Positions 624-17,895 of a stretch of 64,000 nucleotides of DNA are shown here, in pieces. The DNA lies in contig NZ_CP042163.1 in the NCBI RefSeq assembly GCF_007725405.1, positions 62,001 through 126,000 on the forward strand. Reading direction: 5' to 3'. The notes beneath the pieces are model-generated. The model worked only from the letters and a program-made list of their open reading frames with translations, was not told the origin of the DNA and made no database searches. Source of the DNA: Shouchella miscanthi. GTDB taxonomy: Bacteria; Bacillota; Bacilli; Bacillales; Bacillaceae_D. A program made the position numbers and the translations under genes. How positions within the stretch are numbered: the first letter of the stretch is position 1; each line of letters starts with the position of its first letter.

Positions 624-638
624 TTGAAATCGCTTTCA
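624..638 (+). promoter_or_regulatory. Catabolite-responsive element (cre) over the -35
   Basis: TTGAAATCGCTTTCA matches every position of the Bacillus cre consensus WTGNAANCGNWNNCW. It overlaps the -35 hexamer of the locus promoter, so CcpA with HPr-Ser-P should repress transcription when preferred sugars are present. The match is directly visible; CcpA binding is inferred. Confidence 0.72.
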
Positions 639-652
639 CTATCGATTATGAT
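624..652 (+). promoter_or_regulatory. Sigma-A promoter of the sugar-utilisation locus
   Basis: A -35 TTGAAA (624-629), a 17-nt spacer and a -10 TATGAT (647-652) put the expected transcription start near 659. It lies upstream of the lacI-type gene, and no other comparably good promoter was seen before the downstream sugar genes. The whole 16-kb block may be read from here, which is inference. Confidence 0.65.
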
Positions 653-656
653 CTTA

Positions 657-670
657 TTGAAACGTTTCAA
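657..670. promoter_or_regulatory. Palindromic LacI-type operator
   Basis: TTGAAACGTTTCAA is a perfect 14-bp palindrome with the central CG typical of LacI/GalR-family operators. It lies over the predicted transcription start, immediately upstream of the lacI-type gene, so it is the likely autoregulatory operator. Its half-site resembles the cre half-site, so CcpA could also touch it. Confidence 0.7.
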
Positions 671-690
671 TTGAAAAGAGGAATATGTGA

Positions 691-1665
691 ATGCCCACAT
701 TAAAAGATGTAGCAAAAAAAGCAAAAGTAAGTGTGTCGACGGCTTCTTACGCTATGAATGGTAGCTCGTTAATCTTACCTGAAACAAAAAAAAGGGTTCA
801 TGATGCCGCAAAAGAGCTTGGTTATCGGATTAATGGATCTGCAAAAAATTTAAAAAAAAGTAAAACCGAAATTGTAGCTGTATTTATTAGTGGATTTACT
901 GGACCAGTTTTTAACGAAATGTTAGAAGGGGTTCACGAGTACATTGCGAAGCACGGTTATGAATTAGTTGTTTGTGCGTCTAATGATAAACATAGATTGA
1001 TTGTAGAAAATCATTTTGATGGGGCAATTATCCTTAATTACCATATGGAAAATGATCTATTAGAGATGATTGCGTCAGAGAAGATGCCAATTATTGTACT
1101 AGATCGAGAAAGCCAGCACCCCCATATCCACTCATTGCTATTGCCAAATGATAAAGGTGTACAACAAATTATGGAAGCGATTACAAAGTCAGGTCATGAG
1201 CGGATAGGCTTTATGGCTGGTCAAGGATCATCGTTTGATGGAGAAAAACGACTTGAAGCATTTCAATCATTTATGCAAGAGAGGGATTTACCTATTTATT
1301 TGAGCGATTTTATTCGTGCTGATTTTACAGAAGAGAGCGGATACCACTGTATGGCAGCTTATTTAGAAAAAACAAGTGGAAAATCGCAAGCAACAGCCTT
1401 TGTTTGTGCCAATGATGAGATGGCAATCGGAGCCATTCGTGCGAGTAAAGAAAAAGGCATGCGAATTCCAGAAGACATTGCCATTGTAGGTTTTGATGAT
1501 ATACCCATTGCTATGTACACAGACCCCCCGTTAACAACGGTTCGGGTGAATAAGAAGCAATGGGGCAAAGAGGCAGCAAGACAACTACTGGATCGTATCG
1601 AAAAGAATCCAACTGAATTACCTCGAGAAACGATGGTTGAGTTAGTGAACCGCGGATCTTTATAA
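691..1665 (+). CDS. LacI/GalR-family transcriptional regulator
   Basis: A 324-residue LacI-family repressor. Residues 1-50 form the helix-turn-helix and hinge (TLKDVAKKAKVSVSTASYAMNG); residues from about 60 form the periplasmic-binding-protein-like effector domain, with the usual FVCANDEMAIGAIRA and IAIVGFDDIPIAMYTDPPLTTV motifs near the C terminus. The start follows AAGAGG at good spacing. It is the first gene of the sugar locus and sits directly behind a palindromic operator, so it is probably a local, autoregulated, sugar-responsive repressor. The effector cannot be read from sequence but is presumably the imported oligosaccharide or a product. It is not CcpA, because it is linked to a substrate-specific cluster. 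Confidence 0.9.
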   Translation: MPTLKDVAKKAKVSVSTASYAMNGSSLILPETKKRVHDAAKELGYRINGSAKNLKKSKTEIVAVFISGFTGPVFNEMLEGVHEYIAKHGYELVVCASNDKHRLIVENHFDGAIILNYHMENDLLEMIASEKMPIIVLDRESQHPHIHSLLLPNDKGVQQIMEAITKSGHERIGFMAGQGSSFDGEKRLEAFQSFMQERDLPIYLSDFIRADFTEESGYHCMAAYLEKTSGKSQATAFVCANDEMAIGAIRASKEKGMRIPEDIAIVGFDDIPIAMYTDPPLTTVRVNKKQWGKEAARQLLDRIEKNPTELPRETMVELVNRGSL

Positions 1666-1706
1666 GCTACGATTAATAATGCCCATAAAGGTGAGGAGAG
1701 ATTATC

Positions 1707-3068
1707 ATGAAAAAGTTCTTACTAATGCCAGTTGGAATAATGCTAATTACATTAGCGGCATGTGGAGGAAATGATTCAGCAACAGAAGAAAACGGCGGAG
1801 ACGATCAAGTTACCATTACATACGCTAGCTGGGGAATTGGTCAAGATGGAGAAGAAAACCTCGATACGCTAATGATTGACGCTTTTATGGAGGAATATCC
1901 GCATATTAAGGTTGATATTGACCGGTCGCTTGACCCTGCTGATTGGAATAGCTCACTAGCTTCGGCTGCTAGCGCAAGTACAATGCCAGATGTGTTTACC
2001 ATTGCCGAAGTACCATTGGGTTTAAGTAATAATTGGCTTCTTGATTTAAATGGGTTGACGGAAGCGGATGAGGAGTTTGGTGAAATACCAGAAGCAATTC
2101 GACTTGCAGTCAACTACAACGATTCTATCTATGCAGTGCCATCAGGAACGCAGATGCTTGGCTATTTCGTCAATAAAGATTTATTCAACCAAGGCAATTT
2201 AACGATTCCGAAGTATGGCTATAGCTTAGACGAATTTTCTACGGCCATTCGGGAAACATCCGATGTTCAGCAAGGTGTATCAGGTATTAATCAAATTTTT
2301 TCAATTCCAGACTGGTATCCATCGGTTGTAGATGAAACAGCGGGCTGGTATACATTTAATGATGCTACAGGCTATGATCTCGCTAGTTCCAACTTCATTA
2401 ATGGAGTGCAATTAGCATCTGATCTTGCAAATGGAAACTATGCGTATGATTCGTTAGATGATGCACAAAAGGAGCGCTTTGCAGGAGACAATGCAGAAGA
2501 AGTATGGTTGAACGGCGATATTGCGCTTAAATGGGATGGTACATGGAGTCTCGAAGGATTAAACAATGATGCAGAGTTTGATTGGGATTTTGTCGGTATT
2601 CCAGGCGGGCGTCCGGTTGTAACAAATGATTACCTAGGCATTTCTAGTTCAACAGAGCATGAAGACGAAGCCTATTTATTTTCAAAATGGATGGCGTTTG
2701 GGAAAGAAGGCTTCTTAAAACGAATTGAACTTGCTGATGAAGCTGGCATTGTTGTGAATAAACTTCCAGTAACAGCTGACCAAGACGTATTGGATCAATT
2801 TTTTGCTAATATTGATGTTCCAGGAATAGAGCAAGCATATGAAGGTATTGAGAACGCGGTCATTGAACCAATGAAAACGGTTCCGGGATATGTAGATTCT
2901 CGTTGGGAAGCACCAACAGGCATTTCAATTGGGGATGAAGGAAATGCAACCATTGCAGCTCTTATCGATGCTGCAGTGCGTGGCGATATTAAAATAGAAG
3001 ATTATGCAGTTCAATTAAATGAGTTAGCGAATAGTCGTTATGAAGAAAGCAAAGAGGCAATCGAATAA
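1707..3068 (+). CDS. Sugar ABC transporter substrate-binding lipoprotein
   Basis: A 453-residue extracytoplasmic solute-binding protein of the MalE/cluster-B type. The N terminus is a lipoprotein signal peptide with lipobox LAAC (Cys19) followed by a Gly/Asp/Glu-rich tether. The mature part shows the family features: ITYASWGIG near the start, PDVFTIAEVP, YAVPSGTQMLGYFVNKDLF, and a late DIALKWDGTWSLEGL followed by YLFSKWMAFGKEGF. It is anchored on the outer membrane face and should deliver an oligosaccharide to one of the two permease pairs downstream. It lies about 40 nt after the regulator gene and is followed by a hairpin, a common arrangement for making binding protein in excess. The ligand is unknown. 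Confidence 0.9.
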   Translation: MKKFLLMPVGIMLITLAACGGNDSATEENGGDDQVTITYASWGIGQDGEENLDTLMIDAFMEEYPHIKVDIDRSLDPADWNSSLASAASASTMPDVFTIAEVPLGLSNNWLLDLNGLTEADEEFGEIPEAIRLAVNYNDSIYAVPSGTQMLGYFVNKDLFNQGNLTIPKYGYSLDEFSTAIRETSDVQQGVSGINQIFSIPDWYPSVVDETAGWYTFNDATGYDLASSNFINGVQLASDLANGNYAYDSLDDAQKERFAGDNAEEVWLNGDIALKWDGTWSLEGLNNDAEFDWDFVGIPGGRPVVTNDYLGISSSTEHEDEAYLFSKWMAFGKEGFLKRIELADEAGIVVNKLPVTADQDVLDQFFANIDVPGIEQAYEGIENAVIEPMKTVPGYVDSRWEAPTGISIGDEGNATIAALIDAAVRGDIKIEDYAVQLNELANSRYEESKEAIE

Positions 3069-3080
3069 ACAGTAAAAGAG

Positions 3081-3126
3081 AAAAAGCGCGTTAGACAACG
3101 TCATGAATTTGTTGTAAGCGCTTTTT
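3081..3126 (+). terminator. Intercistronic hairpin after the binding-protein gene
   Basis: AAAAAGCGC (3081-3089) pairs with GCGCTTTTT (3118-3126), with an inner ACAAC/GTTGT stem. The T-run is inside the stem and short, so it could be a partial terminator or an RNA-stabilising structure that raises the level of the upstream mRNA. Confidence 0.55.
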
Positions 3127-3180
3127 CATTTAAAAGACTTTCGAGCAGCTCCTTTTAAGTATGAAAGGAAATGGGGGGGT

Positions 3181-6066
3181 TTGATGTTAAAAAGAAGTTC
3201 TATTGTTTGTTTAACCATATTAGGTTTTCTAGCTTATTCGCAACCAACTGTAGCAGAGACGACTGAAACACTTGAAGAGCTGGAGCTATCATACGATGAG
3301 GTTTATCAGAGCAACAAAGATGAGTACGGTAACAAAATAAGTGATTCGCAACACTTTACTGTCAATCAATTTAAAGAATACGAAGGGATTGATCAGGACT
3401 ACATCAATTGGGCAACGGATGGTCGTTTTACAGTAGAGGTGGATGTGGCTGAAGCTGGTTTGTATGAGATCGGTGTTGCATATCGGGTAACAGAAGAAAC
3501 CCTCGTGCCTTCTGAAGGAGCTATTCTAATAAATGGTCATTATCCGTTCTCAGAGAGTAGAGGAATGATCTTTCCTAGTGAATGGATTCAAAATGAAACA
3601 ACGTTTGAGCAGGATCGCTATGGAGCAGATATTATGCCTAGTCAGAGTCAACTACAAGACTGGCAAACGTTTCGATTAGGTGATTCAAGAAGAGTGGAAC
3701 CATTTGCATTTGCGCTTGAGCAAGGACAGAACACGATAGAATTCAAACATGTCCGAGGCGAAATGGATATAGCCCATGTAACGATCGAGCCGGTGACAGA
3801 GATTTCAACTTACGATACATACATAAGTGACATAGACGACGAAGAGGTTATTAACGATTTAATTACAATTGAAGCCGAACACCCAAGCAAAAAAAACGAA
3901 TCCTCTATACGACCAATTGTGACGCAGGATCCTTCCGTTTCACCGTATGAGACTGGAGCAAGGCTACTTAATACATTCGGGGGTGACTCTTGGAAAGTAA
4001 GTGGTCAATCTGCCTGCTGGTCTTTTGAAATTTCCGAGAGCGGATTTTATTATATTACTTTTAAGGCACTGGCAAACAACGATGCCAATAAAGATATATA
4101 CCGTACCATTTATGTGAATGGAAGGATACCATTTGCAGAACTTAAGAGTTATCCATTTCCGCAAAGTGCTCATTGGGAGAACCAAACACTAGCTAATGAT
4201 GCCAATGAGCCGTTTCGTATTAATTTGGAAGCAGGCATGAATGAACTTTGTCTAAGGGTGGACGACACTCCTACGCAAGAGGTACAAAATGAGTTAACGC
4301 TCATTATGGCGGAAATGGATGAATTAACGTTATCAATTAAACAATTAACTGGAAATCAGCAAGATGCAAGTAGAGGATGGCGTATTGAAGATTATATTCC
4401 CGATGTGTCCAATCGGTTACGCTCTTGGGCTCAGAAGGTCGAGACTGGAGCTGATAAGCTAAGGGCTGCAAGTACAAGTGAAGGAGATAGCGTTCAAGGT
4501 GTGTCACTAAGAGTAGCAGGGGATCGTTTACGCTCTTTAGCGGAGACACCGAACGAATTACCGAACCGCTTAAATGAATTATCTGAAGGCTCCAGTTCGG
4601 TTTCTCAAGTACTCGGGGATGTGTCCATTGCTTTAAGAGAACAACCACTTCTGCTCGATCAACTGTTCATTCATGGCAAAACTTTGTTGCCGGATGCAGA
4701 AGCTGGGTTATGGATGAAAACCAAAGAATCGGTAAGTCGCTTTTTTCAATCATTCAGTGGCGACGATTTAACAACGGTAAATACAGAGCACGATGTTGTT
4801 GAAGTGTGGGTTAATCGACCACGTCAATATGTTGACTTAATGCAGTTAATGGCGGATCAACAATTTACACCGGAGACAGGAATTGAGGTCAGGTTTTCAC
4901 TTATGCCAGATGAACAAAAGTTAATTTTAGCAAGTGCAGCTGACAGTCAACCAGATTTGGCATTAGGGATTAGTAACTGGCTACCATACGAGTTAGCCAT
5001 TCGTGGTGCAGCGGTAGATTTAAGCCAATTCGACGATTTTGATGACTACATGAATCAATTTGCCCCAGGGGCATTTATGCCGTTAATGATTGAAGATTCA
5101 ATCTATGCGCTGCCAGAGACGCAAGATTTTTCGGTGTTGTTTTACAGAGAGGATTTAATGGATGCATTATCCCTACCTGTTCCTAATACATGGGGGGATG
5201 TGGTTGACATCTTACCAGAATTACAACGGTATGGTATGAACTTCTATTCATCAATTGCAGGAGGTGCAGCCTTCAAGCCTTTTGCAGCAACAGCACCGTT
5301 TATCTATCAATTTCAAGGTCAAATCTTTGAAAAAGATGGTATGGGTGTGGCCTTAAATGAAGATGAAGCACTGCAAGGTGTGCAGTTTATGGCTGATTTA
5401 AACACGATTTACAGTACACCCTTGCAAGTGCCAAACTTCTATAATCATTTTCGGTATGGCTCACTTCCTTTAGGGATTGGAAACTTTGCAACTTACGTGC
5501 AGTTAACCTCTGCAGCGCAAGAATTGACTGGCTGGGATATTGCCCTGCATCCTGGTGTCGAACAGGAAGATGGCTCTGTCTCTCGTTGGGCCAGTGGTGC
5601 CGCGCAAGCTGGCATGATGTTTAACGGAAGCGACAATCAAGAACAGGCATGGGCGTTGTTACAATGGTGGATGAGTAAAGAAACACAAAGGGAGTTTGCT
5701 CAAACCTTGCAAATGACGTACGGGGCAGAATACATGTGGAATACGGCTAACCTTGAAGCATTTAAAGAACTTCCATGGCCAGAGGAGCATAAAGACGTTA
5801 TTTTAACGCAATGGGAACAATTAATTGAAGTGCCCAAAACACCATATGCCTATATGGTTGAACGGGAGATAAGTAATGTTTGGAATAAGATGGTCTTTGA
5901 TGGTGAAAATGCTCGTTCGGCTGTTGATGATTCGATTATTACGATCGATCGCGAGCTGCGCAGAAAGATGGAAGAGTTTGGCTATATGCAAGATGGAGAA
6001 GTGATCCGTCCGTACCCAATTCCGACAATTGAAGCGATCAAACAGAAAACGAGGGAGAGCGAATGA
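3181..6066 (+). CDS. Large multidomain secreted sugar-binding protein (carbohydrate-binding modules + solute-binding domain)
   Basis: A 961-residue exported protein. The start can be TTG 3181 or, equally well, ATG 3184; a G-rich ribosome site lies just upstream. A classical signal peptide ends near TVAET, with no lipobox Cys. Residues about 30-205 and 215-375 look like two beta-sandwich carbohydrate-binding modules ([41 protein letters not shown]). Residues about 376-530 are a mostly helical linker. Residues about 539-950 are an extracellular solute-binding fold ([54 protein letters not shown]). Ordinary binding proteins are about 400-450 residues, so this one is more than twice as long. It overlaps the next permease gene by 4 nt (ATGA). 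It probably captures a polymer or long oligosaccharide at the surface and hands it to the transporter; substrate and surface attachment are unknown. Confidence 0.8.
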
Positions 6067-6956
6067 ATACACAACCAAGACAACACGTGAGCACTGCATT
6101 GTTCTTAGCTCCGTATTTACTCTTATTCATTCTCTTTATTGTCATACCAGTTCTTGCAGCAATTGTATTATCGTTTACGTATTTTAATGCAATTGAATTT
6201 CCAAGCTTTGTTGGCTTGGCGAATTATGTAAACGTATTAACGCAAGATAGTGTGTTTATGCAGTATGTCTTGCCAAATACTGTCATCTTTGCGCTTATCG
6301 TCGGACCAGGCGGTTATATCCTTGCATTTATTCTTGCGTGGATGCTAGCGCAAATCACAAAAGTGCCGAGAACGATTTTAGCGCTAATCATTTACTCACC
6401 ATCAATGACTTCTGGAATTGCGATGGCTGTTGTTTGGTCCATTATTTTTAGTGGCGACCAGAGTGGTTATTTAAACAGTCTCTTAATGCAGTGGGGAATG
6501 GTATTTGAACCAATTCAATGGTTACAGTCTCCACAGTATCTATTAGCGATTATGATTGTTGTTACTCTTTGGGGCAGTATGGGTGTCGGATTCTTAGCGA
6601 TGTTATCAGGGGTTATGAACATTAATAAAGAGATTTATGAAGCTGGTTATATTGACGGCATTAGCAATCGATTTCAAGAAATTATTTATATTACAATCCC
6701 ATCTATGCGACCGCAAATGTTGTTTGGCGCTGTGATGGCAATTGTGCAAACCTTTCAAGCTGGTGCGATTGGTGTCGCGCTATCTGGAGCGAATCCTACG
6801 CCTCAGTATGCAGGGCAGTTAATGGTTAACCACCTTGAAGATTTTGGTTTTATCCGCTACGAGATGGGCTATGCAGCTGCAATATCGGTTATCTTGCTTC
6901 TTTTTGTGTATCTTTTTTCGATCGTAGCAAGACGGTTATTTGCGGATAAAGATTAG
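6063..6956 (+). CDS. Sugar ABC transporter permease, MalF-type (pair 1)
   Basis: A 297-residue inner-membrane permease with about six hydrophobic helices. The cytoplasmic ATPase-docking EAA loop is visible as [25 protein letters not shown]. The start ATG overlaps the stop of the large binding-protein gene (ATGA), so translation is probably coupled and the two proteins are likely partners. It pairs with the MalG-type permease that follows 11 nt later. The ATPase is not encoded nearby. Confidence 0.92.
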
Positions 6957-6967
6957 GAGGAGCAGAC

Positions 6968-7849
6968 ATGGCGAGTTCGTTTCATGGGAGCAGAATGAAT
7001 CCCGATAAATTTCACCTAAGTCAGCTGAAATTTTACTTGTTTTTAATACCGCTTGCGATTTTTATGGCTATGCCAATCGTCTATATTTTTTCGCATGCAT
7101 TTAAACCAATTGATGAGTTATTTGCTTATCCCCCGAGGTTTTTTGTCGACAAACCAACGATACAAAATTTTGCTGATTTAATTAACAATCGAAGCGAATC
7201 TGGAGTACCAATGTCCCGTTATTTATTTAACAGTATTATCGTTACGCTTGTTGTTGTTGCCATTACCGTGTTTATTAGTTCAATGGCAGGCTACGTGCTA
7301 TCGAAAAAGAAATTCAAACTAAAAAAAATGATATTTGAACTAAATACTCTCGCTCTCATGTTTGTTCCTGCGGCTGTAGGAATTCCAACGTACTTGCTTA
7401 TCCAACAAATTGGTTTGCTCGATACATTTTGGGTTCACATCCTGCCAATGCTTGCTATGCCAGTCGGTTTATTCTTATTGAAACAATTTATCGACCAGAT
7501 TCCGAATGAGCTAATTGAAGCGGCACAAATGGATGGAGCGAAAGACATTCAAATCTATTGGAAAATTATTATGCCTTTGGTAGCTCCTGCACTGGCAACG
7601 GTAGCGATTTTATCTTTCCAAGCAGTATGGAACAGTGTAGAGGCATCAACATTGTATATCAACGACGAAAACTTAAAAACCTTTGCCTTTTACATGTCTA
7701 CTTTAACAAGTGATGCTGCAGGAAATACGGTAGCTGGACAAGGAATGGCTGCAGCTGCAGCGCTTATTATGTTTTTGCCAAACCTAGTAATTTTTATTAT
7801 TTTACAAAGCAAGGTAATGAATACGATGGCCCATTCAGGGATTAAGTAA
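6968..7849 (+). CDS. Sugar ABC transporter permease, MalG-type (pair 1)
   Basis: A 293-residue membrane permease with the MalG-type EAA loop [20 protein letters not shown] and about six membrane segments. The start follows AGGAGGAG. It forms the second half of the first heterodimeric channel, together with the preceding gene. Substrate specificity cannot be read from the permease alone. Confidence 0.92.
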
Positions 7850-7864
7850 GGGGGAAGGAACGAG

Positions 7865-9883
7865 ATGAAGCAAACACTGCTCACATGGCTCTTTATAATG
7901 ATTGTCTGTCTCTTGCCATTGAGCGCACAGGCATCCGTTGAGGTTCCTTATAAAACTTATACACTTACTGGTGAAGGCTATCCGATTGAAACCCAAGTTG
8001 CATACGTACCGGTTGGAAATATTGGGTTGACGGGTGATTTACTAGCGCCGGAAGATCTGTTTGTTGGGAAAGACAATTTGATTTATGTTGCCGATTCGGG
8101 TTTCCAGCACGTTGTTGTTTTTGACGAAGAGGGAAAACGGATTCGGGAAATTGGGACTGGACTATTAAGGGAGCCACTTGGTGTTTTTGTTAACGAAGAA
8201 GGTATTTATGTTGCAGACTACGCGCTTGAAGAAATCGTTTTATTTAATCATAGTGGTGACCTCATCAACACATTCGGCAAACCAGATACACCTTTATATG
8301 GGGAGCGTGCAGCCTTCAAGCCTCAAAAAATCACGGTGGATCGTAGAGGCAACCTTTACGTTGTTTCTGAGGGATCAACAAATGGGATTGTCCAACTAAG
8401 TGCAGAGGGTGATTTTCTTGGTTTCTTTGGTGTCAATCGCTTTGGAGGTTCATTGCTTTCCTTTTTACCGGATCTAATAACAAGCGAAACTCAGCGGGTA
8501 AATCAATTTTTACGGGTACCCCCTGCTCCAACGAACATAACGATCGATGAGCAGGGGCTCGTTTACACGGTAACGGCGGGTACGGATAATGAAGTCGTGC
8601 GGCGTTTGAATATTGCTGGTGCGAATATGCTTCCTTCTGATATAGCAGGTTCAAATCCAATGCGCGATGTGGCTGTTGGTGCAGCTGGTAATATGGTAAC
8701 CATCTCGACGGACGGAACCATTTATGAGCTCGATCCAGAAGGCTACACACTGTTTTACTTTGGTGGAAAAGAAGATGGTACCAGTCGGGCAGGCTTGTTT
8801 GTTCAGCCAAGTGCAATTGAGGTCGATCGTAACGGCCAGCTACTTGTAGCCGATCGAGAAAAAGGGACAGTCGAGCTATTTAATCCGACAGGTTTTACGA
8901 GGAATCTTCACGAGGGAATTCGCTTGTTCACAGAAGGTTACTATGTTGAAAGTGAAGCGATTTGGCAAGATGTCTTACAGTTAAATGCCTCCTTCGCCCT
9001 TGCCCACAATGCGATTGGCCAGTCTGAGTTTAAACAACAAAACTATAATAAGGCGATGGCTCGTTTTGAGCGTTCCAATAATTACAGTGCCTATTCTAAT
9101 GCATTCTGGGAAGTGCGTTACGAATGGATGCAAGAAAAGTTAAGTTTGTTGTTCGCTTCCATTATCGGATTAATAACACTCCGTTTCGGCATCATTTATA
9201 CAAACCGACGCTTTGGTTATTTAGCACCAGTAGAAAAAAGGTGGGTGCAGGTTAAGCGTTTAAAGTTATTTAATGAACTACTGTTTGTGTTTCGCTTTAT
9301 TCGTCACCCAATTGATAGTTTTTATTATGTAAAAGAAAATAAACGGGTTTCTATTTTATCAGCTTCTATTCTGTATGTGTCTCTATTTATCTCGTATTTG
9401 TTTTTCATCTACGGTCGAGGGTTTATTTTCAGACCAACACCACTAGAATACTTTTGGTTTACGTATGATTTACTCATATTTGCTACGCCGATCGTCTTTT
9501 TCTTACTTGTTAACTATTTGGTGAGCACCATTAGTGATGGTGAGGGACGCTTTCGAGAGCTGTATATTGGCTTTATATATGCGAGTGCCCCCTTGTTAAT
9601 AGGGCTCGTTCCTCTCGTATTCGTGTCCCGTATTTTAACGTTAAATGAAGCGTTTCTCTTTCAATTTAGTTTACTTAGCATGATTGTTTACGCACTAGTA
9701 ATTCTTTTTATCATGCTGAAGGAAATTCATGATTTCACATTTTGGGGTACGGTGAGAAATGTGGTCCTTACCATTTTTGGCATGATCTTGCTTGCTTTTG
9801 TGCTTATGATTGTTTATGTCCTATTTGATCAAGTCATCCAGTTTTTAGCATCCATTTGGCAGGAGGTGCTCTACCGTGTTTAA
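7865..9883 (+). CDS. Secreted NHL beta-propeller / TPR protein with C-terminal Yip1-like membrane domain
   Basis: A 672-residue protein with an unusual domain order. Residues 1-24 are a signal peptide (cleavage near AQASVEV). Residues about 45-345 are NHL-type propeller repeats (LIYVADSGFQHVVVFDEEGKRI, GIYVADYALEEIVLFNHSGDLI, QLLVADREKGTVELFNPTGF). Residues about 355-412 look like TPR helices (EGYYVESEAIWQDVLQ, QQNYNKAMARFERSNN). A membrane segment near 430 follows, and residues about 472-672 form a multi-helix Yip1-like domain. The propeller should face outwards. It starts 15 nt after the permease gene and overlaps the next gene by 8 nt, so it is part of the sugar operon. A role in binding a polymer or organising the transporter is inferred; no function is known to me. 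Confidence 0.75.
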   Translation: MKQTLLTWLFIMIVCLLPLSAQASVEVPYKTYTLTGEGYPIETQVAYVPVGNIGLTGDLLAPEDLFVGKDNLIYVADSGFQHVVVFDEEGKRIREIGTGLLREPLGVFVNEEGIYVADYALEEIVLFNHSGDLINTFGKPDTPLYGERAAFKPQKITVDRRGNLYVVSEGSTNGIVQLSAEGDFLGFFGVNRFGGSLLSFLPDLITSETQRVNQFLRVPPAPTNITIDEQGLVYTVTAGTDNEVVRRLNIAGANMLPSDIAGSNPMRDVAVGAAGNMVTISTDGTIYELDPEGYTLFYFGGKEDGTSRAGLFVQPSAIEVDRNGQLLVADREKGTVELFNPTGFTRNLHEGIRLFTEGYYVESEAIWQDVLQLNASFALAHNAIGQSEFKQQNYNKAMARFERSNNYSAYSNAFWEVRYEWMQEKLSLLFASIIGLITLRFGIIYTNRRFGYLAPVEKRWVQVKRLKLFNELLFVFRFIRHPIDSFYYVKENKRVSILSASILYVSLFISYLFFIYGRGFIFRPTPLEYFWFTYDLLIFATPIVFFLLVNYLVSTISDGEGRFRELYIGFIYASAPLLIGLVPLVFVSRILTLNEAFLFQFSLLSMIVYALVILFIMLKEIHDFTFWGTVRNVVLTIFGMILLAFVLMIVYVLFDQVIQFLASIWQEVLYRV

Positions 9884-12137
9884 AAAGCTCGTTCGTGTGA
9901 GTATAACTTTTGGTGTTATTCTTTTTGCTGGACAACAGCTTGTCTATGCGGAAGAGCAGGAGTCAGGAATAACCCCTTGGCAACGTTCAAATCAATTCAC
10001 GCAACCTGATCATGCAGAACAGGCTGAACTTCCAGTTGTGAACCCGGAAGATCATGGGTTTATAAAAATGGCAGAAACAGAAGAACTAATTCTTTATGTA
10101 GAGCACGAGTCACTCGGGATTGCGATTAAAGCCAAACAAACAGGCTATGTTTGGCAATCTGGCGTCCATGGTAATGAGGATGCCCAACTAAATGAAACGT
10201 GGCGAGATATGGCAAATTCAGCGCTAACTGTTGAGTACTTAGACCAGCGTGACACGATCCAAACAGAAAGTCTTGTTACATACAATCCTGACATACATGT
10301 GGAGCAAACGGACTCAGGCTTTAAAGCAGACGTTGTGTTTGGACGATCAAATATTGAATTGACACTATTGGTTTCGTTAGATGGTGAACGATTGCAACTT
10401 ACTATACCTGAAGAATCCATTGTAGAGGGTGATCGAGCTAAGCTTGTAACATTGCGCTTGTACCCGTTTCTAGGTGCTGCAGATGAGAACCTATCTGATG
10501 GATACTTATTTATTCCAGATGGAAGCGGTGCGTTAATTCGATTTGAAGAAGAAGCAAGAGCGACTTCGCCATATCGAGCCCCTGTTTACGGAGAAGACGC
10601 AGCATTTGAACGGAATCAAACAGCCGTTTCTTTATTAAATGAGCCCTTATCAATTTCTTACCCCGTATTTGGTGTTGTACATGGAGAGAAACAAAATGGG
10701 TTCGCAACCATACTTGGAGAGGGTAAGCATTATGCGACGATTTTGGCCTATCCAAAAGGAGCATCAACTGATTTTTATTGGGCGACTGCTTACTATACAT
10801 TTCGTCATGAGTATTATCAACCAACTAATCAAAGTGGTGATGGTTTTAATACGTACCAAACTGAGCGACTTTTATACGGAATTGAACAAGAGCGTGTGTT
10901 CTTACAAGAGGATCATGCTAGCTATGTGGGGATGGCCCATGCGTATCAAGAATACTTAGCAACAAATGAACGACTGCCTGAGCAAAAGGATCAAGTGCAG
11001 CTAAATGTAACCTTCTTAGGTGGGGAAACAAAACGGCGCTTTTTTTGGAGGACGGTTGAACCTGTAACCCCTGTTGCAGCTATTGCTAACCACGCTGCAG
11101 AACTGAATCAGGCAGGTGTGAAGAACATGCAAATTACGTATCGTGGTTGGCTGGCTGGAGGGTTGACAGGAACATTGCCGCGAAAGGATGGGTTTGAATC
11201 AGCACTTGGTACAACAGGTGAGCTTGCCTCTACACAACAGTATCTAGCGGATCTTAACATTCCTTTTTATTTTCAAACCGATTATACGAAAGCGTACGAT
11301 GGGGCTGCAGGCTTTTCAGGACAACATGATGTTGTGAGACGATTAAATGGTGAGGCAGCATTGGAGGTAAGAACGTTTTGGGATCATTTTTTGCTAACGC
11401 CTGAGTGGGCGCTTAACACTGTTGATGCAGATCTATCGATGTACAAAGAGAATGGCATTAACCGATTATCGATTGATACGACCGCTTCTGAATTGTTTAG
11501 TCATTATACAAAAAGGACGGTTATGCAGCGCGACGAAGTGCTTCAACAATATGAAATGCTATTCGAAAAACTACTATCTGAAGTTGGGCCATTAGCACTG
11601 AATCGACCGAATGATTATGCCTGGAAGTATGCCGAAAGCTTTCAACAGATTCCCCTTTACTCGTCCAATTACACGGTAGTAACCGATACGGTGCCGTTTC
11701 TGCAAATTGTTTTAAAGGGGCATGTACCTTACTTTGGAGAATTCTCTAATTTTCATAATCAAACCGAGCAAGACCTTCTTCGGATGATTGAATACGGTGC
11801 TTATCCATCGTTCTTGTTAACAACAGAGTCTCCAGATGTACTTTTCAATACGCCTTCCGAAGATTTATTTACGTCACAATTTTCTACGTGGAAAGAAGAT
11901 GTGACGAATCAATATGAATTAGCAATTCAAACTTTAGAACCTGTTGAGGGTGAACAGATTATAAACAGAGTTGTGCACGGAACGGGATTAATTGAAATGG
12001 TTTATTCAAACGGACTATCGGTAGTTGTGAACTATCGGCAAGCGGATGCAACTATTAATGGACTGGTACTTTCTCCGTTAAGCGCCAAGACCGTCCAGAG
12101 TTCAGAACTTGCTAGAGACAAGGAGGATCGCCCATGA
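9876..12137 (+). CDS. Secreted DUF5696-like protein, putative carbohydrate-active enzyme
   Basis: A 753-residue exported protein with an N-terminal signal peptide (to about residue 25, VYAEEQE). The first half is beta-rich (ESLGIAIKAKQTGYVWQSG, YLFIPDGSGALIRFEEEAR) and resembles the substrate-binding sandwich domains that precede catalytic barrels in some glycoside hydrolases. The second half (from about residue 380) has alternating patterns such as GVKNMQITYRGW, NIPFYFQTDYTKAYDG and NRLSIDTTASELFSHY that suggest a TIM barrel. I recall this family being called DUF5696 and lying in sugar ABC loci of Paenibacillus and Bacillus relatives, without an assigned reaction. An extracellular glycosidase role is inference. 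It overlaps neighbouring genes on both sides, which places it in the transporter operon. Confidence 0.65.
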   Translation: MFKKLVRVSITFGVILFAGQQLVYAEEQESGITPWQRSNQFTQPDHAEQAELPVVNPEDHGFIKMAETEELILYVEHESLGIAIKAKQTGYVWQSGVHGNEDAQLNETWRDMANSALTVEYLDQRDTIQTESLVTYNPDIHVEQTDSGFKADVVFGRSNIELTLLVSLDGERLQLTIPEESIVEGDRAKLVTLRLYPFLGAADENLSDGYLFIPDGSGALIRFEEEARATSPYRAPVYGEDAAFERNQTAVSLLNEPLSISYPVFGVVHGEKQNGFATILGEGKHYATILAYPKGASTDFYWATAYYTFRHEYYQPTNQSGDGFNTYQTERLLYGIEQERVFLQEDHASYVGMAHAYQEYLATNERLPEQKDQVQLNVTFLGGETKRRFFWRTVEPVTPVAAIANHAAELNQAGVKNMQITYRGWLAGGLTGTLPRKDGFESALGTTGELASTQQYLADLNIPFYFQTDYTKAYDGAAGFSGQHDVVRRLNGEAALEVRTFWDHFLLTPEWALNTVDADLSMYKENGINRLSIDTTASELFSHYTKRTVMQRDEVLQQYEMLFEKLLSEVGPLALNRPNDYAWKYAESFQQIPLYSSNYTVVTDTVPFLQIVLKGHVPYFGEFSNFHNQTEQDLLRMIEYGAYPSFLLTTESPDVLFNTPSEDLFTSQFSTWKEDVTNQYELAIQTLEPVEGEQIINRVVHGTGLIEMVYSNGLSVVVNYRQADATINGLVLSPLSAKTVQSSELARDKEDRP

Positions 12138-13000
12138 ATCGGTTAACGATGAAAACAAAAAAAACGCTAACTGGATATGGGTTTATACTTCCTTGGATCA
12201 TTGGATTCGCGATCTTCACGGCATTTCCATTATTTTATTCCATTTATTTAAGTTTTCATGATGTCATTATTACACCAAATGGCATTCAAACAACGTACAC
12301 ACATTTTTCAAATTATACGGATGCGTTTGTTGTCGATAGTCAATTTGTGCAAATTCTAGTAACGTACTTACGTGAATTCGCGTTTTCCGTACCGGTCATT
12401 TTAGTGTTCTCTTTAATTATTGCGCTACTTTTAAATCAGCCAATACGGTTTCGTGGATTGTTCCGGATGGTGTTCTTTCTGCCAGTTATTATTATAAGTG
12501 GGCCAGTGGTGAAACAATTAATTGATCAAGAAATGACAAGTATACCTGTTCCAGAAAATAATCTTCTTTTTGTGTATTTACTAGCAGGTGATGGTATAGT
12601 CAGCACCGTTTTTACGTATTTAATGGATAATCTCGTTATGACTCTTTGGTTTTCAGGTGTACAAATTTTAATTTTTCTAGCTGCTTTGCAGAAAATTGAT
12701 CGTCACATTTATGAAGCAGCAAAAATCGACGGTGCATCGAACTGGGAATGCTTCTGGAAAGTAACGCTTCCAAGTTTATTTCCGATTGTGGTAGTAAATA
12801 CCATCTATACTACGGTTATGTACTCCATTTTTGCATTAAATGGTGTTGTACTTCATATCCAAAGCCATATGTTTCGTGTAGAGACTGGATTTGGTTACGC
12901 CTCTGCCTTATCTTGGATTTACTTTGCTGTTATCTGCTTACTCTTACTTCTAATCGTTGGCTTTATGACAGTACGCGGACGTAAGGGGGGAGCATCATGA
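12134..13000 (+). CDS. Sugar ABC transporter permease, MalF-type (pair 2)
   Basis: A 288-residue membrane permease. The EAA loop reads EAAKIDGASNWECFWKVTLPSLFP. The N terminus LTGYGFILPWIIGFAIFTAFPLFYSIYLSF is typical of MalF-type subunits. It overlaps the DUF5696-like gene by 4 nt and the following MalG-type gene by 4 nt. It is a second, clearly different copy of the permease at 6063-6956, so the locus encodes two separate channels. Confidence 0.92.
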   Translation: MNRLTMKTKKTLTGYGFILPWIIGFAIFTAFPLFYSIYLSFHDVIITPNGIQTTYTHFSNYTDAFVVDSQFVQILVTYLREFAFSVPVILVFSLIIALLLNQPIRFRGLFRMVFFLPVIIISGPVVKQLIDQEMTSIPVPENNLLFVYLLAGDGIVSTVFTYLMDNLVMTLWFSGVQILIFLAALQKIDRHIYEAAKIDGASNWECFWKVTLPSLFPIVVVNTIYTTVMYSIFALNGVVLHIQSHMFRVETGFGYASALSWIYFAVICLLLLLIVGFMTVRGRKGGAS

Positions 13001-13953
13001 ATATACAAACTAAGAAAGTAAAGAAAAAGCGTTCCATCGTTGGTTTCACAAAAATAAGAAAGCTGTTAATAGGGAGCCAAGATAATAGCGGGTTCATACT
13101 AAAGATACTTGTTTATAGTTTATTAGTCGCAATCGGATATGTGTACTTATTTCCAGTGTTGTACATGGGTGTATTTAGCTTTAAACGTTTAGATGATTTA
13201 CTAAATCCTCTCGTCACTTGGATTCCGACAGGACTGTATTGGGAGAATTTCAGTAGAGCATTAGAGGTGCTTAATTTTTGGCCAACATTATGGCAAACCT
13301 TGTATGTCACTGTTTTACCAGCTGCTATTCAAACAGGTGTTGCTGCTGTTGTTGGTTATGGATTTGCAAGATTTTCATTCCCTTTTAAGAAAACACTGTT
13401 TGCGCTCGTATTAGTGACGTTTATTATTCCTCCTCAAGTTACGTTGATTCCGCGTTATGTGTTTTTTAACGACCTTGGGTTGCTCGGAAGCATTCAATCG
13501 TTCCTTTTACCAGCTTTGTTTGCTCAAGGGATTAACAGTGCCATATTCATTTTAATTTTCTATCAGTTTTTTCGATTACTGCCAGATTCACTTGAAGAGG
13601 CTGCACAACTTGATGGGGCGGGAAATGTACGCATTTTCTTAACCATTGCTTTACCAATGGCTGTACCAGCAATGATTATTTCATTTTTGTTTTCGCTCGT
13701 GTGGTATTGGAATGAAACGGGATTGGCAGCCATTTACTTTGGAAATAGTTTAACAACCTTACCACTTGAACTACAGCGTTTTTCTATTGTTTATGAACAA
13801 ATGTATGGTGGCGAAGGAAGTTTTGATTTTATTAATGAAGGCATTCAAATGGCGGGGACACTTATTACCATTCTGCCGCTGCTCATTATTTATTTTATTG
13901 CACAGCGATGGTTTGTTGAAGGTGTAGATCGATCAGGAATAGCAGGAGAATAA
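12997..13953 (+). CDS. Sugar ABC transporter permease, MalG-type (pair 2)
   Basis: A 318-residue permease with a basic N-terminal cytosolic extension of about 35 residues (NIQTKKVKKKRSIVG) before the first membrane helix. The EAA loop is EAAQLDGAGNVRIFLTIALPMAVP. It forms the second half of transporter pair 2. It is separated by only 14 nt from the glycosidase-like gene that follows, which suggests that the imported material is processed by those cytosolic proteins. Confidence 0.92.
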   Translation: MNIQTKKVKKKRSIVGFTKIRKLLIGSQDNSGFILKILVYSLLVAIGYVYLFPVLYMGVFSFKRLDDLLNPLVTWIPTGLYWENFSRALEVLNFWPTLWQTLYVTVLPAAIQTGVAAVVGYGFARFSFPFKKTLFALVLVTFIIPPQVTLIPRYVFFNDLGLLGSIQSFLLPALFAQGINSAIFILIFYQFFRLLPDSLEEAAQLDGAGNVRIFLTIALPMAVPAMIISFLFSLVWYWNETGLAAIYFGNSLTTLPLELQRFSIVYEQMYGGEGSFDFINEGIQMAGTLITILPLLIIYFIAQRWFVEGVDRSGIAGE

Positions 13954-13967
13954 GGGAGAGATTTACT

Positions 13968-15185
13968 TTGACTAGAGAAGACATTATTCAAGAAGAAGCG
14001 TATAGAAGTTTTTTATTTTTTTGGCAGGAGGCCAATACAGATTCATCTAGTCCTGGTTTTGGGTTAATACGGGATAAAACAGGTGACGACGCTGTTCATG
14101 TTGCCAGTATTGCATCGGTAGGATTTGGTTTGTCTGCAATCGTTATTGGAGTTGAGCGAGAATGGATTACGAAAGAAGAAGGATATAATCGAACGAAAGG
14201 GACATTAGAGACATTTCTGCATCGAGTGGAGCATATCGATGGTTTTTTCTATCATTTTCTTGATATGAGAACAGCTAAACGCTACAAAGAATACCATGAT
14301 TGTGCGTCTATTATTGATACATCTCTTTTTATAAACGGTGCCATTACGTCAGCTGAATATTTCGGTGGAGATATTGCTAAGTTAGTCGAGCAAATCTATG
14401 AGCGGATAAATTGGCAAACGTATTACAACAAAGAAACAAATCAATTCTATATGGGATTTGATGAAAAAACAGGTGGATTTGGTCAGTGGGATATGTACGC
14501 GGAGCAAATGATGCAATATATGCTTGGAACCGCGTCACCTTCATACCCAGTCCCAGTGAAGATTTATGACGGATTTGAACGTCAAGTAGGTACATACGGG
14601 GACTACACGTTTTATCACTCACCAGGAGGGCAACTATTTACACACCAGTTTTCACATGCATGGTTCCAATTTAAAGGAGTCGTTGATAAAGATGGAATTG
14701 ATTGGTTTGACAATTCGATTAAAGCGACTCTTGCTAGTAGACAACACGCCATTGATCATCAAGACTCTTTTCAAACGTGGTCAGAGCATTCTTGGGGGCT
14801 AACAGCTAGTGAAGGGCCAAATGGTTATCATGGGCACGGCACACCACCGTATCATCCACATGTTGATGTAAAAAATGATGGTACAGTAGCTCCATGTGCG
14901 GCTGCTGGTTCTATTGTCTTTACACCTGAACAATCGAAAGATGCTTTAGAACATTTTTATCGCAATCATCCTCAATTGTGGAGCAAATATGGGTTTTTAG
15001 ATGCTTTTAATTTAGATATGGATTCGCCGTGGTATTCAGAACGCGTCATTGGGATTGATAAAGGCATTACATTGTTAATGATTGAGAATGAACGTAGTGG
15101 CTTAATATGGGATCTTTATATGAACAATGCCATTATACAGAGAGCACAAAAGCTATTGGGGTTTAGAACATTACAAGAAGTTTAA
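13968..15185 (+). CDS. Glycoamylase-like (PF10091) protein, GH144-type candidate
   Basis: A 405-residue protein starting at TTG behind GGGAGAGA. It matches the PF10091 pattern throughout: a VDTALL-like IIDTSLFINGAI, WDMYAEQMMQYMLG, the block LFTHQFSHAWFQFKGVVDKDG, WGLTASEGPNGYHGHG, GTVAPCAAAGSIVFTPEQS, YGFLDAFNLD and IDKGITLLMIENERSGLIW. Characterised members of this fold include GH144 endo-beta-1,2-glucanases; older databases call the family glucoamylase. There is no signal peptide, so it should act in the cytosol on imported oligosaccharides. Beta-1,2-glucan is therefore a possible substrate but is not shown. It lies between permease pair 2 and a GH35-like gene. Confidence 0.75.
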   Translation: MTREDIIQEEAYRSFLFFWQEANTDSSSPGFGLIRDKTGDDAVHVASIASVGFGLSAIVIGVEREWITKEEGYNRTKGTLETFLHRVEHIDGFFYHFLDMRTAKRYKEYHDCASIIDTSLFINGAITSAEYFGGDIAKLVEQIYERINWQTYYNKETNQFYMGFDEKTGGFGQWDMYAEQMMQYMLGTASPSYPVPVKIYDGFERQVGTYGDYTFYHSPGGQLFTHQFSHAWFQFKGVVDKDGIDWFDNSIKATLASRQHAIDHQDSFQTWSEHSWGLTASEGPNGYHGHGTPPYHPHVDVKNDGTVAPCAAAGSIVFTPEQSKDALEHFYRNHPQLWSKYGFLDAFNLDMDSPWYSERVIGIDKGITLLMIENERSGLIWDLYMNNAIIQRAQKLLGFRTLQEV

Positions 15186-15199
15186 GAAGGGATGTTCCC

Positions 15200-17578
15200 A
15201 TGATCGAAATAAAAGAAAAAAAGATTTATATCGATGGCAAGCCCCAATTGATTCTATGTGGTGAAATTCATTATTTTCGGCTCGAAAAAACGGAATGGCA
15301 GGATCGAATAAACAAATTAAAAGCAGCAGGGTGTAATGCTGTAGCTACATATGTTCCATGGATTTGTCATGAGTCAGTGGAAGGAGAAATCGATTTAACA
15401 GGGGAGACAAGGTCGGAATTAGATTTGATTAGTTATATCAACCTCTGTCACGAAAATGATCTCTATTTCATTGTGAAGCCAGGTCCGTTCATTATGGCAG
15501 AAATGAAGAATGAAGGAATACCTTACTGGATTTACGAAAAGCATCCTCATATTGTACCAATTGGCTGGGATGGAAGAGCAGGTTCAACGCCAACTGTTGA
15601 TTATACGCACCCTGATTTTTTAAATGAAGCGAAGGGATGGTATAAAGAGGTCATGACAGCAATTGTACCCATGTTACATGAAAACGGTGGGCCTATTATT
15701 GCTGTTCAACTTGATAATGAAGTGGGGATGCTTGATTGGGTTAGCAACACACCAGATTTAACAGACCATGTTATTGCGTCATTTCTGAGCTGGTTAAGGG
15801 AAACGTATAGCGAAAGCGAGGATCGTTATCCGATTCCGCTAACCGCTGAAGCGATTCGTTCTCCAGATGAATCGTATACCGCTATGCTTCATTTGGACCT
15901 TGGCTATTTTATGCGACAACGATTTGCATTGTATATTAAGTGTTTACGAGGTTATGCGGAGATGTTTGGTGTACATGCTATCCCATTTATTGTTAACATT
16001 CATGGAACTGGTGGTGGGCGTGGCTTTACGTTTCCAATTGGCATTAGCCAACTTTATGAAAGTTATACCCAAGCACCTGGGTACTTGTCGGGTTCTGATA
16101 TCTATTTTGGGGATTTAACGATGGAAACATTCCAAGATTTGTATCTTATAAACGGAATGATGGATGCGGTTCATAGACCGGAACAACCCCTCTCATCTAT
16201 TGAATTTAATTGTGGAGATGGTAACTTTGGTGAGAATTATGGAGGGCGTTATGACCCTTCAGCAGCTGATTTAAAAGCAAGAATGTGTATAGCGCAAGGG
16301 AATCGGTTACTAAACTATTATTTATTTGCTGGTGGTCAAAATTATCGGTTTAATCAAGTGCACGGAGATGGAAATGATCGTATCGCTGCGACAGGGGAAC
16401 GGCATGGATTTGCTGCGCCAATTGACCCTGAAGGCTACGAAAATTATACATATCCACGTATGGCAGAATCCATTCAAACCGTAATGGCACAGAAGGAACA
16501 GCTTGCCGCGATGGAGGAAGAGCGAGATTCACTCGTGTTCGGCTTTATTCCTGATTATTTTATGACAGAATATCGCTACCCAAAGAGTCACAGGATGAAA
16601 ATGTTGTACCAAAATCTTGAAACTTACCGCGCTCATGGTGCATGGGAGATTATGGGCAGAGCGCTCTTGCTCGCTAACTATCGGTTTACAGGCCATGATG
16701 TTCAAAACAAGGAACTGGATCCTTCTGAACAAAAAGCAATTGTGCTCCCTTCGGCATCGTACATGAGTCGGTCGATTCAGAAAAAGCTCGTAACGTATAT
16801 GAAAAACGGGGGCACGGTTTTATTGTACGGAGAAGCACCCACGTATGATATGGAAGGGAACAAATGCCAACTCTTGCTTGAAGCGGCTAATGTGGAGGTT
16901 GTTAAGACGAGGCATGCAACTGAAAAGCAGTTTTTGTCTGTAGTGGCAAGGGGGCTAGCTTCTCCAAGACCTGAAGTGCGCACACACGTTGCACAAGTCT
17001 TTTCGAGTCAAGATGCAGAGCCGATCTTTCAGTTATACGGTACAGATGAGCTCACATCATTTAAAGAACAAGTAGGTCAAGGAACGCTAATGGTGATAGG
17101 AAATGCGTATCGTTGTGACATTGACTTGTTTCAAAAATTGCTAACATCCGTAGGTGTACAGCCAACCCTTTCTCACGATTACAAGCATCACGGTCTTTTT
17201 ATGACATCCACAAGAGATGAAAAGGGACAACGCTTTATTCATGTGCTCAACTTAGATGGGCTTGAGAAGTCTTTTGCCATTTATGAACATAAACAAATGT
17301 TATTTAATCGCGTGAATGTCCATCTTGATGCACGGGCAGGTTTGCTACTGCCGCTTAATGTTTCTTATGGTTCTGTGAAAATACTATACGCTACAGCAGA
17401 GGTAAAGTGGTATCAGAAAACTTCGATGACATTTAAAGGGAGTCGTAAAGGTTTTGTGATTTTTTTACAGACAAAACAAGTTGTTCAAGTCGGTTCTGGA
17501 GTAATGGTGAAGCGCTTGGAAAACCATCATTATTTACTGCAAGCAGAGCAAGCCGAATGTACAATAACGTTTAGGTAG
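15200..17578 (+). CDS. GH35-like beta-galactosidase family glycosidase
   Basis: A 792-residue protein with an N-terminal GH35 TIM barrel: LILCGEIHYFRLEKTEWQDRI, GCNAVATYVPW, FIVKPGPFIMAEMKNEGIP. The acid/base motif reads QLDNEVG (Glu174, usually QxENE) and the likely nucleophile is Glu335 in SIEFNCGDG. Beyond about residue 440 comes a large C-terminal part with a class-I-amidotransferase-like beta-galactosidase accessory region (KAIVLPSASYMSRSIQKKLVTYMKNGGTVLLYG) and beta-strand-rich ends. There is no signal peptide, so the enzyme is cytosolic. It probably removes terminal beta-linked sugars from imported oligosaccharides; galactose specificity is not certain. It is the last gene of the locus and has no clear strong terminator after it. 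Confidence 0.82.
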   Translation: MIEIKEKKIYIDGKPQLILCGEIHYFRLEKTEWQDRINKLKAAGCNAVATYVPWICHESVEGEIDLTGETRSELDLISYINLCHENDLYFIVKPGPFIMAEMKNEGIPYWIYEKHPHIVPIGWDGRAGSTPTVDYTHPDFLNEAKGWYKEVMTAIVPMLHENGGPIIAVQLDNEVGMLDWVSNTPDLTDHVIASFLSWLRETYSESEDRYPIPLTAEAIRSPDESYTAMLHLDLGYFMRQRFALYIKCLRGYAEMFGVHAIPFIVNIHGTGGGRGFTFPIGISQLYESYTQAPGYLSGSDIYFGDLTMETFQDLYLINGMMDAVHRPEQPLSSIEFNCGDGNFGENYGGRYDPSAADLKARMCIAQGNRLLNYYLFAGGQNYRFNQVHGDGNDRIAATGERHGFAAPIDPEGYENYTYPRMAESIQTVMAQKEQLAAMEEERDSLVFGFIPDYFMTEYRYPKSHRMKMLYQNLETYRAHGAWEIMGRALLLANYRFTGHDVQNKELDPSEQKAIVLPSASYMSRSIQKKLVTYMKNGGTVLLYGEAPTYDMEGNKCQLLLEAANVEVVKTRHATEKQFLSVVARGLASPRPEVRTHVAQVFSSQDAEPIFQLYGTDELTSFKEQVGQGTLMVIGNAYRCDIDLFQKLLTSVGVQPTLSHDYKHHGLFMTSTRDEKGQRFIHVLNLDGLEKSFAIYEHKQMLFNRVNVHLDARAGLLLPLNVSYGSVKILYATAEVKWYQKTSMTFKGSRKGFVIFLQTKQVVQVGSGVMVKRLENHHYLLQAEQAECTITFR

Positions 17579-17870: not shown

Positions 17871-17895
17871 AGCAGCGATCTTTCGCTGCTTTTTT
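17871..17895 (+). terminator. Attenuator-like terminator in the ABC-F leader
   Basis: AGCAGCGA (17871-17878) pairs with TCGCTGCT (17883-17890) around a 4-nt loop, followed by T residues. It lies 41 nt after the leader ORF stop and 36 nt before the ABC-F start. Flanking AAAGAAACACG (17831-17841) can pair with CGTGT and GTTTCTTT just downstream (17896-17911), giving an outer or alternative structure. Confidence 0.6.

Follow-up and report, generated by a model that had tools for sequence, protein, structure and literature searches.

The stretch of DNA analysed here, called the window below, comprises 64,000 nucleotides of the genome of Shouchella miscanthi (contig NZ_CP042163.1, positions 62,001 to 126,000 of the forward strand; coordinates in the text are those of the window). 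At 691-17578 it carries a carbohydrate-import locus of 11 open reading frames (ORFs), all in the + direction according to the ORF list and the translations. The 11-gene locus is flanked by terminator-like hairpins at both ends and has a candidate LacI operator. The seven genes that lie between those for the first sugar-binding protein (SBP1) and a GH144-type enzyme form a separate module. Their order is identical in nearly all relatives, an arrangement far beyond chance.

The first gene of the locus encodes a LacI-family regulator of 324 aa (691-1665; Pfam LacI and Peripla_BP_3) and the second a stand-alone sugar-binding protein, SBP1, of 453 aa (1707-3068; SBP_bac_1). The core that follows consists of two blocks. 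Block A comprises SBP2, of 961 aa (3181-6066), and the permeases PermA1 (6063-6956) and PermA2 (6968-7849), both recognised by BPD_transp_1 and both with an EAA-type loop. Block B comprises an NHL/Yip1 protein of 672 aa (7865-9883; NHL E 7.9e-11, Yip1 E 3.5e-7), a DUF5696 protein of 753 aa with a GH129/GH101-like fold (9876-12137; PF18952 E 1.3e-171) and the permeases PermB1 (12134-13000) and PermB2 (12997-13953), which again match BPD_transp_1 and the EAA pattern. The locus ends with the GH144-type (PF10091) enzyme of 405 aa (13968-15185; PF10091 E 1.3e-71) and an IaSGT-like GH35 enzyme of 792 aa with a GLMA-type second domain (15200-17578; Pfam, NCBIfam and a PDB match). Neighbouring genes overlap at 6063-6066 (4 nt), 9876-9883 (8 nt), 12134-12137 (4 nt) and 12997-13000 (4 nt). 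A preliminary description of this DNA, made from the letters alone, had proposed one co-directional, overlapping block encoding LacI, SBP, permease, DUF5696, PF10091 and GH35 proteins. The 11 ORFs and the four overlaps of 4-8 nt confirm the block, and Pfam and NCBIfam profile searches back the labels; the 672-aa protein, described there as propeller/TPR/Yip1, matches NHL and Yip1.

SBP2 has a signal-like N-terminus, two beta-sandwich domains (residues ~57-204 and ~227-360), a helical linker (~363-526) and a C-terminal SBP domain at about 554-843. For the N-terminal beta-sandwich domains only sub-threshold CBM35-like and similar scores were obtained, and with scores below the threshold a CBM identity was not adopted. 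The NHL/Yip1 protein consists of an NHL-repeat region followed by a membrane Yip1 region. A hydrophobic N-terminal stretch is present in 106 of 110 SBP2, 124 of 127 NHL and 127 of 134 DUF5696 sequences, and a lipobox is rare (2, 4 and 7 sequences, respectively). Such predicted N-termini would suit proteins that are exported or anchored by this end. The EAA-type pattern is kept in 111/112 PermA1, 102/112 PermA2, 112/132 PermB1 and 124/130 PermB2 sequences; from these loops we infer that both permease pairs would be able to dock an ATPase. No ATPase was found among the 11 genes in profile searches, and three MalK-type ATPases are encoded elsewhere in the genome. The locus thereby resembles ATP-binding cassette (ABC) importers of the CUT1 class (MalEFGK/MsmX type) in having SBPs, MalF/MalG-type permeases with EAA-type loops and a separate MalK-type ATPase. 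It differs from them in its 961-aa fusion SBP, its two constant accessory proteins and its two permease pairs in one operon; CUT1 importers usually have one pair per system, a rule that is broken here.

Occurrence and order of the seven-gene core

The core order SBP2-PermA1-PermA2-NHL/Yip1-DUF5696-PermB1-PermB2 was found in all 13 loci picked by SBP2 similarity. The NHL/Yip1 protein is split in two genes in five of them (L030-L034), as it is in many relatives. Occurrence within the genus is patchy, with long SBP2 matches in 2 of 11 other same-genus genomes (G001 and, in broken frames, G006). In Bacillus sp. JCM 19041 (L023/L073) the operon is in broken frames; the genes for SBP1, SBP2, NHL/Yip1, DUF5696, PermB2 and GH35 are fragmented, be it through decay of the locus or through errors of the draft.

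To avoid a choice based on neighbours, only the DUF5696 profile was used to search 398 Bacillota genomes, at most three candidates being scored per genome. Matches were obtained in 46 genomes, 39 of which passed the cut-off; both counts include the genome of the window. Full-length DUF5696 was present in 37, which were kept, and nine with short, weak matches were dropped. Weak matches below the cut-off were also seen in the controls Thermotoga maritima and Lactococcus lactis; our guess is that these are perhaps GH36-like fold relatives. Apart from the genome of the window, this set gave 55 full-length matches, which were retrieved with their surroundings. NHL or Yip1 lies directly upstream of DUF5696 in 54 of these loci and PermB1 directly downstream in 53, all three misses being contig ends. 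The full order is present in 28, block B is followed by block A in 6, the order is partial in 3, and block A is missing from the fetched stretch in 18, six of which (L124, L127, L128, L139, L145, L147) have at least 8 kb on both sides. Among the named loci, which are the best 80 of 578 encoding a DUF5696 relative, 73 have the full core order; the other seven comprise four contig-end cuts, one case of broken frames and two loci (L099, L106) that are without one member.

The same 398 genomes were searched with an SBP2 profile (cut-off 1e-30, at most two candidates scored per genome). Of the 46 genomes matched, six were dropped in which only the SBP domain was hit (148-305 bits). The INTERDEPENDENCE of blocks A and B was as follows: leaving the genome of the window aside, SBP2 is present in 36 of the 36 genomes that have full-length DUF5696, as against 3 of the 361 that do not. 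Fisher's test gives a p of 5e-48 by genome and, by genus (19/19 vs 3/247), of 3e-26, values that overstate independence, the genomes being related. The three genomes with SBP2 and without full-length DUF5696 (G139, in which SBP2 is partial, G163 and G213) have SBP2 on contigs of less than 4.4 kb each. Block A was found without block B in the fetched stretch of five genomes of the f86 family (L174, L176, L178, L179, L184), in four of which the upstream ORF lengths are alike (329, ~340 and ~355 aa). In G224 the nearest DUF5696 on the block-A-only contig is ~21 kb off.

Eight genomes were scored in full, fragments included, for DUF5696 versus SBP2 matches. DUF5696 copies outnumber those of SBP2 in three of the five f86 genomes with block A alone, G121 (10 v 4), G194 (10 v 4) and G224 (8 v 4), and also in the fragmented drafts G099 (11 v 6) and G141 (19 v 10). 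The draft of G141, with 13 of its 19 DUF5696 matches full-length or nearly so and six partial, shows a strong expansion of the module. The PermA proteins are more similar to those of the window than the PermB proteins in 12 of 12 loci (A1>B1 and A2>B2 in identity; L023, with its broken frames, was omitted). The higher PermA identity, together with the finding of block A alone or in fewer copies than DUF5696, suggests that block A is a general part of the system, and that its substrate-specific part consists of block B together with the enzymes and the stand-alone SBPs. Against this division stand the equal numbers in G160 (3 v 3), G299 (1 v 1, on separate contigs) and G401 (4 v 4), and the main basis for the pattern of one A with many B is three genomes from a single genus plus two fragmented drafts.

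In other Bacillota the core appears to be paired with enzymes for many different sugar polymers. Among 20 chosen neighbours of the SBP2-similar loci, GH144 and GH35 were found at L022 and L023 (by similarity) and at L026 (with a different GH35), GH144 and GH3 at L025, GH3 at L024, GH43 at L027 and L034, a GH13 amylase at L029, GH10 and GH43 at L030, and GH9 at L033; the neighbours scanned at L028, L031 and L032 include no glycan-degrading enzyme. The GH35 of L026 (17018-19387) is of the GLMA type, is 29 % identical to that of the window and lies upstream of SBP1, with GH144 downstream. In the profile-chosen set, 110 of 152 co-directional flanking ORFs were scanned. SBP_bac_1 proteins account for 36 of the 110, and among the matches listed are GH2, GH3, GH10, GH26, GH28, GH30, GH31, GH35, GH42, GH43 and GH130 as well as alpha-L-fucosidase, alginate lyase, pectic acid lyase, chondroitinase B and PF10091. 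Ten flanking ORFs scanned singly include GH26 (twice), GH43, GH3, GH30, three SBPs, a GDSL lipase and a ricin-type lectin. We take the substrates of these neighbour families to be of the xylan, mannan, pectin and alginate types. Unrelated genes, such as that of an rRNA methyltransferase, also flank the core. A signal-like N-terminus is absent from 9 of 12 enzymes in L024-L034 and present in 23 of 49 neighbours of at least 500 aa in the profile-chosen set, not all of which are enzymes. Judged from these N-termini, intracellular digestion would be usual near the relatives of the window, and is not universal.

A search for the same gene set and order, which the preliminary description had suggested, has thus revealed a constant core order in the relatives and enzymes that vary. 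A search of the open-access PMC literature gave no paper that names DUF5696, and the module is not described in the titles or abstract openings of open-access PMC papers on NHL/Yip1, SBPs, polysaccharide import or Bacillota clusters. In the accessible main text of a paper on Caldicellulosiruptor bescii (PMC8579813), "Yip1" and "two ABC" each occur zero times. The seven-gene importer machine is apparently undescribed. The earlier suggestion of an undescribed system holds more broadly than it was made: the enzymes belong to kinds already known, and it is the importer core that is new to the open-access PMC literature.

Enzymes, binding proteins and substrate

The PF10091 protein has XcSGL (PDB 8xul) as its best match by sequence among PDB entries (E 2.9e-50) and also matches 5gzh, named endo-beta-1,2-glucanase (E 8.6e-43). 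The remaining PDB matches comprise BDI_3064, three entries under the name "putative glucoamylase" and CpSGL (5gzk), which carries the label uncharacterized. Signature residues of the SGL clan are a Glu, a Phe and a Tyr, according to the accessible text of PMC12102758. E179 and F224 of the window protein align with the clan-defining Glu and Phe as given there, a mapping that presumes a numbering offset of 14 residues and a Gln at the Glu site of the crystal; an equivalent of the third residue, Tyr367, could not be placed in the alignment. The enzyme is predicted to be a cytosolic endo-beta-1,2-glucanase.

The GH35 protein is closest to IaSGT (PDB 7vkx, E 5.4e-60), followed by the glucosaminidase GlmA (5gsm, E 1.1e-53). 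Residues N173, E174 and E335 correspond to Asn175, Glu176 and Glu343 of IaSGT, as counted by hand in the HMMER alignment; at the Asn175 position the glucosaminidase has Asp, and Asn is kept in the window protein. At the Leu100 position of IaSGT the window protein has Met, a replacement that occurs in many IaSGT homologues (PMC8861115, accessible text). The protein is predicted to be a cytosolic beta-1,2-glucosyl transferase or glucosidase. Scored simply for hydrophobicity, neither the GH144 nor the GH35 protein has a signal-like N-terminus, which agrees with the cytosolic location proposed for both in the preliminary description.

By sequence, the SBP domain of SBP2 is most similar to the beta-1,2-glucooligosaccharide-binding protein Lin1841 of Listeria (E 1.8e-14). 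The PDB entry nearest to SBP1 is 22hh (E 2.6e-90), which shows neither ligand nor organism. Since GH144, GH35 and SBP2 are each nearest to beta-1,2-glucan proteins by sequence, with key residues kept in the two enzymes, beta-1,2-glucan is most probably the substrate of the locus, one of the two guesses made before. A galactan was set aside, and the galactose-bearing glucan of the earlier guess lacks support, as the closest relative of the GH35 protein is a glucosyltransferase and not a beta-galactosidase. The predicted cytosolic position of the endo-glucanase points to an uptake of long or cyclic chains in one piece.

Two known clusters can be compared. In Listeria innocua, lin1839-lin1841 encode SOGP, a GH3 glucosidase and a Sopn-binding protein, according to the parts of the cluster descriptions available. 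A homologue of that binding protein is encoded here, and related loci pair the core with GH144 and GH3 (L025) or with GH3 (L024). The IaSGT cluster of Ignavibacterium album contains GH144 homologues, an IaSGT-type GH35 and a homologue of the Sopn-binding protein, and differs in its proposed TonB-dependent uptake (PMC8861115, accessible text). In the accessible descriptions there is no mention of DUF5696 or NHL/Yip1 for either cluster, nor of two permease pairs for that of Listeria or of paired permeases for that of I. album (PMC8861115).

Regulation and boundaries of the operon

A promoter-like site, TTGAAA-17-TATGAT, was found by motif scan at 624-652 on the + strand. It overlaps a cre-like sequence at 625-638. 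Downstream of it lies the perfect palindrome ATTGAAACGTTTCAAT (656-671, no strand assigned); all three elements are located 5' of lacI. The 14-base core of the palindrome occurs exactly in 27 of 80 related loci, wherever in the locus, compared with a mean of 0.035 and a maximum of 3 of these loci for 200 shuffled palindromes. The recurrence of this core suggests that the palindrome is likely the operator of the LacI-family regulator. A wider regulon was considered and, on the exact matches, rejected: besides this operator core the genome has one further perfect copy of it, within a coding ORF (L192). Six more sites with one mismatch are present in the genome. In the gap between SBP1 and SBP2, a hairpin at 3080-3127 on the + strand (-19.4 kcal/mol, z -3.86; none of 200 shuffled sequences reached this stability) could raise the expression of SBP1 above that of the downstream genes.

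The upstream boundary is marked by a terminator-like hairpin (507-534, + strand), a 10-pair stem followed by a T-run, after a tRNA_bind ORF (the C-terminal part of metG), and the end of the operon by another (17871-17890, + strand), an 8-pair stem followed by TTTTT. Overall, the promoter scan gave 28 sites against a shuffle mean of 46.8, and the terminator scan 15 against 13.7. As neither count is in excess of the shuffles, these calls rest on position. The operon is separated from tatD (20497-21270) by an ABC-F-like ATPase gene (17932-19557) and, on the minus strand, a Usp-like gene (19693-20355). This corrects the insertion between metG and tatD described previously, in that tatD is not the direct neighbour. 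The sole Rfam match at gathering thresholds within the window is a tRNA gene at 49066-49139.

One composite importer and its alternatives

On balance, the sequence data favour a LacI-regulated beta-1,2-glucan operon around a seven-gene core that would act as one composite ABC importer. Outside the cell, a long or cyclic chain would be captured by SBP1, SBP2 with its two beta-sandwich domains, the DUF5696 protein, as a non-catalytic GH129-like holder, and the Yip1-anchored NHL region. The PermA and PermB pairs would move the chain inwards, powered by the MalK-type ATPases encoded elsewhere. Inside the cell, the GH144 enzyme would cut the chain and the GH35 enzyme would handle the short pieces. 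In Sphingomonas, polymer-sized alginate is taken in by the ABC importer AlgQ-AlgM1M2SS, which has a single permease pair in a Gram-negative background, and is cut inside; this system is a possible analogue of the core.

The preliminary description had proposed two separate importers for products. Its single carbohydrate-import locus with two permease pairs and two binding proteins stands; the two importers are probably not separate, and one unit is the revised reading. Two independent CUT1-type importers under one regulator, SBP1 serving one pair and SBP2 the other for products of different sizes and the NHL/Yip1 and DUF5696 proteins being accessory surface proteins, are the main alternative, and a less probable one. 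Each pair looks complete, with EAA-type loops, the operon has two binding proteins, and in some genomes A without B and B without A occur at separate places. Set against this, the blocks accompany each other in each of the 36 further genomes that have full-length DUF5696, and the arrangement remains constant despite unrelated enzymes; a second product importer should sometimes be lost. One functional unit fits better with a core that is constant across loci with unrelated enzymes and with sub-blocks that occur jointly in these 36 genomes, and one composite importer is for these reasons the reading we lean towards. Joint occurrence does not prove one complex, and it also fits two importers under one regulator; besides this, the structural model of SBP2 is moderate (pLDDT 74, the other four being at 57-64). 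More tentatively still, the core could represent a new class of composite ABC importer in Bacillota, with two permease heterodimers, a multi-domain SBP, a Yip1-anchored NHL protein and a pseudo-glycosidase, which would take in cyclic or polymer-sized glycans to be digested in the cell and in which a shared block A could serve many substrate-specific B units.

The model of DUF5696 (pLDDT 79.5, pTM 0.83, from a 12-sequence alignment) has the GH129-like DagB (5opq) as its top Foldseek match (E 3.4e-30, TMt 0.69, rmsd 6.6, 12 % identity); across GH129 and GH129-like chains the matches have a prob of 1.00, a TMt of 0.68-0.71, an rmsd of 5.9-7.2 and 12-13 % identity, and NagBb, GH101 and GH36 are matched as well. 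The structure prediction asked for in the preliminary description has thus supplied a GH129/GH101-like fold for DUF5696, that of SBP2 remaining moderate. The protein differs from GH129 NagBb, DagB and GH101 in having no barrel carboxylate conserved in at least 90 % and in being encoded inside an importer operon: among 146 sequences no D/E position of the barrel (376-660, limits set by us) reaches 90 %, and at columns 379 and 543, mostly acidic in relatives, the window protein has T and H. The protein is more probably a pseudoenzyme that holds glycans than one that trims polymers, mainly because one DUF5696 protein accompanies many unrelated enzyme sets. The capture proposed earlier is retained. 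The surface trimming proposed with it is weakened, as DUF5696 has no such carboxylate and none of the other proteins of the operon was recognised as a secreted hydrolase.

That DUF5696 is instead an active surface glycosidase of a new family, trimming the polymer before uptake, seems unlikely. The fold is that of GH129, GH101 and GH36 enzymes, the acidic columns of the barrel reach 87 % (E639), 86 % (379) and 82 % (604 and 543), and outside it D215, in a PDGSG motif (214-218), and D241 are conserved in 98 and 93 %. DagB needs four acidic residues, one of them an Asp of the partner monomer, and shares one of the two catalytic residues of NagBb (PMC5698469, accessible text). Since active enzymes of this fold, these two included, differ in their catalytic acids, missing conservation is no proof of inactivity. 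An active enzyme is harder to reconcile with the same protein lying beside enzymes of the xylan, mannan, alginate and glucan types. Quite unlikely, too, is another glycan (a galactan, an alpha-glucan or another beta-glucan), with distant homology as the source of the beta-1,2-glucan signal. Several observations point that way: by fold, SBP2 resembles several glucan-binding proteins, with a cycloisomaltooligosaccharide-binding protein ranking 1st and Lin1841 5th, and the GH35 protein lacks an equivalent of Arg349, which fixes subsite +1 in IaSGT and is absent from many of its homologues (PMC8861115, accessible text). The GH94 phosphorylase present in both the Listeria and the I. album clusters has no counterpart here either, a search for PF17167 giving no match in the own genome and being positive in 2 of 14 control genomes. 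Against another glycan, three different proteins separately point to beta-1,2-glucan proteins, and catalytic and subsite -1 residues are kept.

If the composite importer is real, a widespread glycan-uptake system of Bacillota would have been overlooked, the defining proteins of which are without functional annotation, and a role would be assigned to the DUF5696 protein, the NHL/Yip1 protein and the fusion SBP. Bacteroidetes import large glycans by Sus-type systems; the core would be a counterpart to these and would aid the prediction of glycan diets from gene clusters in the phylum. For S. miscanthi itself, a vague carbohydrate locus would become a directly testable beta-1,2-glucan pathway.

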